Program-made: the position numbers and the translations under genes | The notes under the pieces: generated by a model | What the model was told of the DNA's origin: nothing | The model's input: the letters and a program-made list of their open reading frames with translations, nothing else | Database searches by the model: none | Shown: positions 1-45,696 of the stretch, piece after piece | Layout of the letters: each line of letters opens with the position of its first letter | Numbering within the stretch: position 1 is the stretch's first letter | DNA from: an uncultured Eubacteriales bacterium | Lineage (GTDB): Bacteria; Bacillota; Clostridia; Oscillospirales; Acutalibacteraceae | DNA: 64,000 bases | Assembly: GCA_949293815.1 (NCBI GenBank) | Contig: CASFEZ010000001.1 | Location: 87,875-151,874 of the forward strand | Direction of reading: 5' to 3'

Positions 1-64
1 CGTAGCGGGTGACTGATTTTTTTGTGAAACAAAAAAATCGGAACAAGCGAAGCTCGTTCCGACG
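1..64. repeat. Hairpin repeat behind tRNA-Leu(CAA), partial
   Basis: This stretch contains two adjacent hairpins. In one, runs of T and A around 15-39 pair. In the other, CGGAAC at 39-44 pairs with GTTCCG at 56-61 around a GCGAAGC-containing loop. The words GCGGGTGACTG, GCGAAGC and TTCCGACG recur in the array at 44948-45611, which also abuts a tRNA-Leu gene. The copy is cut by the window edge, so its full length is unknown. Confidence 0.7.
31..61 (-). terminator. Intrinsic terminator of tRNA-Leu(CAA)
   Basis: Read on the minus strand, a 9-bp stem that begins CGGAAC, closed by a short loop, is followed directly by a run of seven T. It starts a few bases after the tRNA 3' end, so it is the likely terminator. 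Confidence 0.65.
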
Positions 65-2863: not shown

Positions 2864-2907
2864 ACCAAAACCGGCAGCCCGGGAAATATGGCTGCCCGTT
2901 GTTTCTA

Positions 2908-3085
2908 CAAACCGTCCTTTTGCCTGAGAGATTGGCGAGACGCTGTGCGTTCGCTTTGCCCCTTCGGCCTTCGCGTTCTGCCGCGAACTTCTCCGGAATG
3001 GCCGTCCGCCCGCAGTCCTCTCCCTTTTTGGGGAACCTGAGAGTGCTGCTCCTTCGGAAAGACCGTGGTCTTGTCTCCTGCGGGT
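2908..3085 (-). ncRNA. Tandem glycine riboswitch (gcvT motif)
   Basis: On the minus strand two consecutive aptamers carry the conserved glycine-riboswitch words. The first contains CCGAAGGAGCA and CTCTCAGGTTCC. The second contains GGCCGAAGGGGCAAAGC and TCTCTCAGGCAAAAGGAC. The linker between them is short, as in the cooperative tandem class. A downstream terminator hairpin and an AGCS symporter follow. Glycine riboswitches upstream of AGCS carriers are known in Firmicutes. The direction of control (on or off by glycine) cannot be decided by eye. Confidence 0.9.
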
Positions 3086-3118
3086 TTCATTCGGCGCAAT
3101 ATGAAATGAACGGAATGT

Positions 3119-18930: not shown

Positions 18931-18944
18931 GGTTGTTGCAGTAA

Positions 18945-19026
18945 AAAGGGGTGCCGGTTTTCGGCTGAGATCGCCTTTTAGGCGGGACCCTCGAACCTGA
19001 TGCGGGTCATGCCGCCGTAGGAATTT
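18945..19026 (+). ncRNA. TPP riboswitch (Thi box)
   Basis: The conserved words GGGGTGCC, GGCTGAGATC, GGGACCCTCGAACCTGATG and GCGGGTCATGCCG-CGTAGG are in the correct order. A terminator hairpin and thiamine-transport genes follow, so the expected action is transcription termination when TPP is bound. Confidence 0.95.
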
Positions 19027-19058
19027 TATCTTTGCAGCCATTGCCAATAAGATGTATT

Positions 19059-44936: not shown

Positions 44937-45047
44937 TTGTAAAGGAGTGGGAGCGAAGCTTTGCAAAGAAACAAAAAACCGAAAAAAGTGCATAACACTT
45001 TTTTTATGAAAAAGAAAAACAGCAAAGCTCATTCAATGAAACAAAAA

Positions 45048-45257
45048 CCACCAAAAAGTGCGAAGCAATTTTTGGTGGAAAGGAGGAACAGCGAAGCGGG
45101 TGACTGTTTTTTGCGCAGCAAAAAACGGATGTAGCGAAACTCGTTCCGACGCGCGGGCGACTGATTATTTGCGTAGCAAAAAAACGGAGGTAGCGCAGCT
45201 TGCAAAAACAAAAAAACCAATCAAAAGATGCGCAGCAGCTTTTGATTGGAGAGGAGG
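45048..45257. repeat. 210-bp direct repeat, copy 1
   Basis: This copy matches 45334-45543 over the same 210-bp length, with about eight mismatches counted by eye. It contains three to four hairpins. Confidence 0.85.
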
Positions 45258-45333
45258 AACAAGGGAGCGTGTGGAGCTTTTATTTTTATGCCCAAGGCAT
45301 AAAAATAAAACGGAGAAAAACGGACATGAAAAT

Positions 45334-45543
45334 CCACCAAAAAGTGCAAAGGAATTTTTGGTGGAGAGGAGGAACAGCGAAGCGGGTGACTGTTTTTTGC
45401 GCAGCAAAAAACGGATGTAGCGAAGCTTGTTCCGACGCGCGGGCGACTGTTTTTTTGCGTAGCAAAAAAACGGAGGTAGCGTAGCTTGCAAAAACAAAAA
45501 AACCAATCAAAAGATGCGCAGCAGCTTTTGATTGGAGAGGAGG
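45334..45543. repeat. 210-bp direct repeat, copy 2
   Basis: Second copy of the unit at 45048. A third, partial unit at 45541-45610 has changed outer arms GGGGCA/TGCCCC in place of GGAAC/GTTCC, so the pairing is kept although the sequence differs. Confidence 0.85.
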
Positions 45544-45611
45544 GGCAGCGAAGCGGGCGACTGTTTTTTTGCGTAGCAAAAAAACGGAGGTAGCGTAGCT
45601 TGCCCCGACGA

Positions 45612-45696
45612 TGGTGCGGGTAACAGGGGTCGAACCTGCACACCTTGCGGCACAAGATCCTAAATCTTGCGCGTCTGCCAATTCCGCCATACCCGC
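45612..45696 (-). tRNA. tRNA-Leu (anticodon UAG)
   Basis: On the minus strand acceptor arms GCGGGTA and TACCCGC pair, with discriminator A and encoded CCA. The anticodon loop TTTAGGA in the stem CAAGA/TCTTG gives UAG (codon CUA, CUN reading). Long variable arm and GGTTCGACCC T-arm. The length is 85 nt including CCA. Confidence 0.95.

Follow-up and report, generated by a model that had tools for sequence, protein, structure and literature searches.

Directly behind the gene for tRNA-Leu(UAG) in an uncultured Eubacteriales bacterium (GCA_949293815.1, contig CASFEZ010000001.1) lies a dense chain of hairpins, and this locus raises the question of whether such a chain is a structured RNA, a multiplied transcription terminator or a palindromic element that places copies of itself on the 3' flanks of tRNA genes. 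In what follows, the window is the whole stretch of 64,000 nucleotides that was analysed, and positions refer to it unless a genome, contig or locus is named.

Architecture of the array

The array occupies positions 44948-45611 and its final base (45611) abuts the minus-strand gene for tRNA-Leu(UAG) at 45612-45696, with encoded CCA, as identified by ARAGORN and by the Rfam tRNA model. An earlier sequence-only reading had given the same location, and its count of roughly nine hairpins is fair by eye. Sixteen GCGNAGC words were found in the array (six GCGAAGC, five GCGCAGC and five GCGTAGC). Every one of them lies on the plus strand, whereas the 63.3 kb of the window outside the array have 27 on the plus and 32 on the minus strand; GGTAGC is also present in plus-strand units of the window. 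The reading had assigned GCGNNGC-type words to the hairpin loops, which is true in part, as several of the sixteen sit in internal loops of larger stems and not in terminal loops. Folding of the 664 nt gave z-scores of -13.0 for the plus strand as DNA and -8.5 for the minus strand as RNA (20 shuffles in each case), and array pieces of 43-109 nt reached z-scores of -3.2 to -6.8 (200 shuffles each).

The unit closest to the tRNA (45542-45609, minus strand; C1:133416-133483 in the genome) reads CCA-TC-GTCGGGGCAAGC...GCTGCCCC, scores 80 bits with the covariance model R1 described below and is one of the six sequences used to build that model. Its first hairpin resembles an imperfect terminator and carries T7 (by eye); a T/A hairpin comes next, and the distal arm TGCCCC pairs with GGGGCA. 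The imperfect terminator is absent from the list produced by a consensus terminator scan. Moving away from the tRNA along the minus strand, this unit is followed by a CCAATCAAAAG hairpin with a GCGCAGC centre and then a T-run on the tRNA sense strand (45503-45535; inverted-repeat and fold analysis), a partial unit (45439-45495; R1 35 bits), an internal GGAAC...GTTCC unit (45371-45436; R1 69 bits) in which the terminator pairing is mostly gone and the outer arm pair is retained, and a CCACCAAAAA hairpin (45333-45365; sequence and fold). Next to these, the inverted-repeat search detected a perfect 15-bp hairpin, TTTTATTTTTATGCC/GGCATAAAAATAAAA, assigned to neither strand (45278-45310). Further out, again on the minus strand, lie copy 2 of the CCAATCAAAAG hairpin (45217-45249; inverted repeat and fold), a partial unit (45153-45209, L001 1611-1667; R1 30 bits), a second internal GGAAC...GTTCC unit (45085-45150; R1 66 bits) and copy 2 of the CCACCAAAAA hairpin with a GCGAAGC centre (45048-45078; inverted repeat and fold). 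The distal end of the array (44948-45042, no strand; sequence and fold) is degenerate and holds one GCGAAGC word and one AAAAAAGTG hairpin.

On the plus strand the array contains a pair of direct repeats of 242 nt with 91% identity, copy 1 at 45043-45284 and, by repeat comparison, copy 2 at 45329-45570. Their first 215 nt (45043-45257 vs 45329-45543) differ at nine positions, close to the 210 bp and about eight differences noted previously, and tandem copies in the window have a common spacing of 286 and 91-96% identity. The joint shift of paired arms reported before could be read in the array itself, GGAAC/GTTCC being present in two units and GGGGCA/TGCCCC in the tRNA-proximal one, and the T-runs at the ends of stems on the tRNA sense strand were seen as well, following CCAATC hairpins. 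A scan of the array gave no promoter-like match, and none of 4227 Rfam families reached its gathering score on it; three sub-threshold matches (E 0.5-0.9) look like chance. Synteny for the window locus is missing in the same-genus genomes.

A second array of the same family opens the window. Its tRNA-proximal unit (1-63, minus strand) lies behind tRNA-Leu(CAA) at 68-154, scores 93 bits with R1 and is likewise among the six model sequences, and the array runs beyond the window (C1:87464-87938 in the genome). Among the other features of the window, a tandem glycine riboswitch aptamer pair (2902-3090, minus strand) and a TPP riboswitch (18937-19040, plus strand) are both ordinary.

Copies in the same genome

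In the 2.46-Mb genome (69 contigs), blastn searches with the array located the hairpin family, away from contig ends, behind five tRNAs, namely Leu(TAG), Leu(CAA), Arg(TCT), Leu(CAG) and Ser(GGA), while two further places are contig starts. No unit stands directly behind 37 of the 42 distinct tRNAs seen (a few of them without a terminator of their own or without flank). The genes for Tyr(gta), Lys(ttt) and Gly(ccc) are followed by look-alike CGGAGCAAG/CGCCGCAAG hairpins that went undetected by both blastn and R1. In the 700 nt that follow Leu(TAG), Leu(CAA) and Arg(TCT), 16, 13 and 4 GCGNAGC words were counted, all antisense to the tRNA and none sense. The terminator-like hairpin is retained in the tRNA-proximal units; the units behind them have mostly lost it and kept the outer arms, and CCAC precedes none of the six internal units.

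Distribution of the hairpin family

R1 is a covariance model derived from six tRNA-proximal units, and its matches begin after CCAC. Matches were obtained in 60 of the 398 genomes of the bacterial family (E<=1e-3) and, at E<=1e-5, in 54 of 391 genomes drawn across the class, belonging to 15 families; the own genome is counted in both figures. The sequence-only reading had advised a search for the unit in related genomes and would have given up its proposal had no other genome carried it, which did not happen. The spread is patchy: two of six same-genus genomes have one R1 match each (38.9 bits in G004 and 27.5 bits in G003), and blastn with the array against these six genomes gave no array match. 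An exact-pattern scan of named genomes returned 72 stretches with titles such as Clostridia, Oscillospiraceae or Eubacteriales, some of them just Bacillota or uncultured bacterium, and including Clostridium methylpentosum DSM 5476.

Rfam searches of 16 related loci gave no family covering the unit, and a known Rfam family was rejected as the identity of the element, as no match above cut-off was obtained on array or unit. Viral contigs and phage records contained no copy for the queries used, and plasmid records yielded a single weak match of 28.8 bits, located after CCAC in Pusillibacter faecalis pMM59_01 (L280:2505-2577); this plasmid is typed as conjugative and ARAGORN detected no tRNA in the 5-kb stretch around the match. 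An origin from phages, plasmids or viruses was rejected for the queries used, on the basis of these counts. None of the papers found on repeats behind tRNA genes deals with the hairpin family, judging by titles and abstract starts, which is not proof of its being unpublished.

A long open frame passes through the element region in 18 of the 72 loci (L188, L189, L192, L198, L201, L220, L231 and others). Such frames, probably spurious, are likely to give rise to false hypothetical proteins.

Position at the CCA end of tRNA genes

The position of the units was determined at 119 distinct sites, which remained after removal of duplicates (11 own, 61 family and 47 class sites). Flanks were read at 73 hand-picked stronger R1 matches, leaving aside G015:C49 and several at 31-34 bits; the class set comprised 28 loci from the class search and 20 hand-chosen stretches, with one match per locus (47 of 57 matches), so that second matches, L280 and L309, which repeats L300, were omitted. 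At 68 of the 119 sites the R1 match begins within 6 nt behind an intact tRNA detected by ARAGORN on the same strand (5/11 own, 33/61 family and 30/47 class sites). The proportion is 64/115 without the four model-building sequences, all of them adjacent, and 29/46 for the class without L281, which is a model sequence. These sites lie behind 29 anticodon types, and a wrong-strand tRNA within 10 nt was found at none of the 119. Copies of a palindromic element on the 3' flanks of tRNA genes, as proposed earlier, are what this comparison showed. The usual unit starts one base after CCA (CCAC|GTCGG); in the window it starts two bases after.

The other 51 sites are away from any adjoining intact tRNA. 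Other genomes contribute 45 of these non-adjacent sites, and CCAC precedes 18 of the 45, for a background of 0.2%; the 72 pattern sites were kept out of this figure because the exact pattern contains the final C of CCAC. These pattern sites were examined in their own right; an intact tRNA precedes 35 of them and a tRNA tail (at least 13 of 16 positions) another 20, as compared with 83 of 3000 random CCA sites in the same loci; of the remaining 17, inspected by eye, 13 come after a GGYATCT...CA repeat resembling the right end of the longer units, and four are of other kinds. As a terminator beside a tRNA is functionally expected, position alone is no proof of targeting. The presence of relatives in many Clostridia, very often starting one base after CCA, suggests that the unit may be a small mobile element of tRNA ends.

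Structure of the unit and preferred strand

On the tRNA strand the unit consists of CCA-C-GTCGGAACAAGnnnCTTGTTCCG-T(5-8), a T/A hairpin, CAGTCACCCGCT and a distal arm GTTCC able to pair with the first arm. Longer copies (about 200-250 nt) have an extra long third hairpin (CGCAAAAAG...CTTTTTGCG) and end in ...TTGACA or ...CACA, followed in the cases read by a terminator-like hairpin or by the next unit. The alignment of 120 distinct units shows a G+C-rich hairpin followed by a T-run; where the unit adjoins a tRNA, these two stand directly behind the gene and, judged from the sequence, look like its intrinsic terminator.

Compensation between the arms, which had been proposed for examination with a covariance model, holds in the family: in 69 of 92 units, the sequence beyond the second hairpin includes an exact 5-bp partner of the unit's own first arm, compared to a mean of 51 and a maximum of 58 in 500 permutations, uncorrected for kinship. 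The 92 units were taken from 125 R1 matches after mostly weak, cut or repeated ones had been excluded by hand. Based on the 120 distinct rows of these 125, G-T pairs outnumber A-C pairs in the first hairpins on the tRNA-sense strand by 131 to 20 (49 to 16 once one near-fixed closing pair is set aside), and this excess indicates the tRNA-sense strand for the first hairpins. Conversely, the whole unit folds better antisense, both as RNA (in 107 of the 133 copies found in other genomes and in 10 of the 11 from the own genome) and as DNA (103 of 133 and 9 of 11, respectively; duplicates kept in all four counts). The structured RNA that had been considered earlier is supported for the first hairpins and not beyond them. 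Taken together, the sense bias of the wobble pairs and the antisense preference of the fold fit a DNA palindrome whose first hairpin doubles as a terminator.

Evidence on movement

Nine tRNA pairs were compared between congeners, and three differ in occupancy: Ser(gga) (L259 occupied, L258 unoccupied), Arg(ccg) (L263/L262) and Arg(acg) (L265/L264), the copy in L265 being weaker (30.8 bits). CGTCG-type units of different make are present in both congeners in L266/L267, compared in part, and in L268/L269; in the rest of the pairs neither congener clearly carries a unit. These comparisons provided no clean empty site and no readable target duplication or direction of change, as the flanks are unalignable beyond CCA.

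Near-identical copies were found behind different tRNAs of the same genome. G387 has two copies with 98.7% identity over 308 nt, one directly behind Pro(cgg) and the other 199 nt downstream of Leu(tag). The two in G165, both cut by contig ends, are 98.6% identical over 216 nt; one directly follows Gln(ttg) and the other lies 173 nt downstream of Pro(cgg). Three copies in G118 are 92-94% identical and have an imperfect direct repeat of about 25 nt at both ends (by eye).

The search for a transposase, a recombinase or an autonomous copy gave none. Among the frames of at least 120 aa in up to 8 kb around each of the 72 pattern sites, no protein cluster outside the element occurred in more than five loci; the largest cluster was a frame inside the element, and singletons were left unannotated. 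A recurring neighbor protein was accordingly rejected. Y1 (RAYT) transposases were likewise rejected as partners, as they do not co-occur with the element: they are present in 33 of 60 element genomes and 164 of 338 others (197 of 398 overall; overlap counted by hand), and G015, G141, G387 and G391 have strong copies of the unit and no Y1 match. The own genome has a single Y1 match (C57:2261-2593), on a contig of 4.9 kb (G000:C57) that also holds a tRNA-Tyr gene at 927-1009.

Other inserts and remnants at tRNA ends

Exact 18-nt tRNA tails, from the end of the T-loop to CCA, are found at ten loci (L123, L139, L147, L186, L191, L201, L202, L210, L222 and L253) between an intact tRNA with an insert and a CGTCGG unit; in L070 a tRNA tail at +287 is followed by another terminator. 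A downstream tail copy (at least 14 of 18 positions) is found for 2 of 64 tRNAs with an adjacent unit vs 15 of 69 without one, and the 18-nt tail was rejected as the element's own target duplication since it mostly marks other inserts. It is inferred that islands or other small elements enter the tRNA and push the CCA-anchored unit away.

A second small insert of about 125-290 nt lies between the intact tRNA and an exact or near copy of the 18-nt tail at nine loci (L186, L210, L253, L147, L191, L201, L202, L129 with a near tail, and L070), and in these inserts a terminator is followed by a reversed T-arm of that tRNA, as judged by eye. In the class loci L290, L292 and L305, 3' halves of tRNA-Trp or tRNA-Lys, starting near the anticodon loop, directly precede the unit (by eye), having probably been displaced by islands entering the anticodon loop. 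Open reading frames with DUF4368, a C-terminal part of large serine recombinases, occur close behind the CCA of tRNA-Leu in L182 (1683-2291) and L123 (1085-1597), the insert in L123 having inverted ends GTGTTCATAACGG; these inserts look like an island family using tRNA-Leu ends.

Two observations concern other hairpins at tRNA ends. Behind Arg(ccg) of the congeners G141 and G236 (L260/L261) the loop of the terminator hairpin is reverse-complemented (GATACAAA vs TTTGTATC) with flanks otherwise conserved, as if by a cruciform flip. At L210:519-592 the element and a tRNA-Met are followed by a Gut-1 RNA (RF01706, 71.5 bits), and GTGAAAT hairpin chains similar to Gut-1 by eye are present behind tRNA-Leu in L179 and L180.

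Interpretation

Based on the available evidence, the array is probably the product of head-to-tail amplification of a mobile hairpin element that is non-autonomous and tied to the 3' ends of tRNA genes. The hairpin family exists in many genomes, has a preferred position and strand with respect to the tRNA, differs in occupancy between congeners, includes near-identical copies behind different tRNAs and compensates changes in its arms. The earlier notion of a palindrome that would copy itself onto the 3' flanks of tRNA genes is largely supported; termination, movement at the DNA level, renewal of the target and an enzyme in trans are inferred. The home of this gene-less palindrome would be the 3' end of tRNA genes, where its first hairpin and T-run may act as the intrinsic terminator of the tRNA, while the T/A hairpin and the distal arm re-pairing with the first arm would produce a cruciform-like fold. 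An enzyme acting in trans would move or copy the unit as DNA from one tRNA end to another, and the array may have grown locally by head-to-tail amplification. It is proposed that, with a terminator kept at the CCA end and a CCA-like motif at the far end, an insertion would do little harm and would regenerate a fresh target, so that copies can stack. A more specific version is put forward only tentatively, in which a class of bacterial mobile DNA would recognize the tRNA 3' end itself (CCA and the context common to all tRNAs) and not a single att site, insert a self-terminating hairpin and recreate the target, arrays growing outward from the tRNA by means of a putative enzyme that works on folded DNA.

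The main rival of the mobile element is that the units are simply efficient tRNA terminators that form a family, carried between tRNA loci by homologous recombination or gene conversion, alike in part through convergence and multiplied by tandem slippage. A first hairpin with T-run directly behind CCA is a classical intrinsic terminator, its wobble pairs favor the sense strand, and tandem copies at a spacing of 286 with 91-96% identity are what simple duplication gives. The look-alike CGGAGCAAG hairpins behind other tRNAs of the own genome, outside the detection of the family, were moreover the reason to weigh the mobile reading down and this rival up. However, conservation extends beyond the terminator into near-identical blocks of 216-308 nt behind different tRNAs, the family is patchy over 15 bacterial families, CCAC precedes copies without an intact tRNA, and 37 of 42 tRNAs in the own genome do without a unit directly behind them, so that plain terminators are considered a rather unlikely explanation. 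An origin of the units in tRNA-integrating islands with a tyrosine or serine recombinase, as debris of attachment sites or as recombination sites, is improbable: exact 18-nt tails directly before a CGTCGG unit in ten loci, the tRNA-Trp and tRNA-Lys halves in L290, L292 and L305 and the DUF4368 frames close behind tRNA-Leu in L123 and L182 are as such sites would predict, but an island is expected to carry the tail of one tRNA, whereas the unit is alike behind 29 anticodon types and downstream tail copies are rarer with an adjacent unit (2/64) than without (15/69). The unit reads as a bystander displaced by islands.

Two further explanations appear very improbable. A REP-type element that depends on a Y1 (RAYT) transposase for its movement would also be short, palindromic and intergenic with conserved centre words, and the own genome does encode one Y1, but Y1 is present in 33/60 element genomes vs 164/338 others and missing from four genomes with strong copies (G015, G141, G387 and G391). 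The strong folds on both strands and the arm compensation could also come from a structured RNA that has its own promoter or is made by read-through of the tRNA gene; against it, neither a promoter-like match in the array nor an Rfam match above cut-off was found, neither strand is favored throughout, and a terminator at the tRNA end would bar transcripts from the array.

If the mobile element at tRNA ends is real, a terminator-bearing unit at the CCA ends of 29 anticodon types would represent a general, harmless way of living behind tRNAs. The family may also account for part of the clutter at tRNA flanks and of the spurious ORFs in Clostridia genomes, and it would provide a handle toward the discovery of a DNA-moving enzyme.

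Comparison with known systems

The Gut-1 RNA is a chain of hairpins in gut bacteria (Rfam RF01706; PMC2864571). Its sequence is different, with the repeat word GTGAAAT, and shows no visible kinship to that of the unit.

The words at the centres of the array hairpins match the d(GCGNAGC) mini-hairpin, a physical or synthetic motif noted for its unusual stability as a DNA hairpin. Among natural elements, REP sequences and BIMEs are short palindromic intergenic units that form head-to-tail clusters, contain no gene and are moved by RAYTs, REP having a conserved GTAG/GGAG tetranucleotide at the stem foot. The hairpin family resembles them as a gene-less, palindromic, intergenic unit in many head-to-tail copies, but it is located at tRNA CCA ends with a terminator and does not co-occur with Y1. 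MITEs are small, dispersed, non-autonomous elements with hairpin potential, terminal inverted repeats and a short target duplication; the near-identical dispersed copies within G165 and G387 recall them, whereas the family is tied to tRNA CCA and no terminal inverted repeats with a short target duplication could be read from its flanks.

Other systems share the location. The rtT repeats (Rfam RF00391) behind tyrT of E. coli are tandem repeats that contain about 19 nt of the tRNA 3' end and are known from few loci. The tail-carrying inserts also hold a tRNA 3' end behind a tRNA; the hairpin family, in contrast, is present in many genera and behind many tRNAs, and its unit is usually without a tRNA tail. 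The 3' ends of tRNA genes are classical docking sites for islands and phages, each tied to one tRNA, and tRNA-integrating islands and tycheposons use these ends, leave tRNA fragments, encode an integrase and carry the tail of one tRNA. The hairpin family too sits at tRNA 3' ends with tRNA fragments nearby, but its unit carries neither integrase nor tail. The family is placed among the palindromic non-autonomous elements, from which its tie to the CCA ends of tRNA genes sets it apart.
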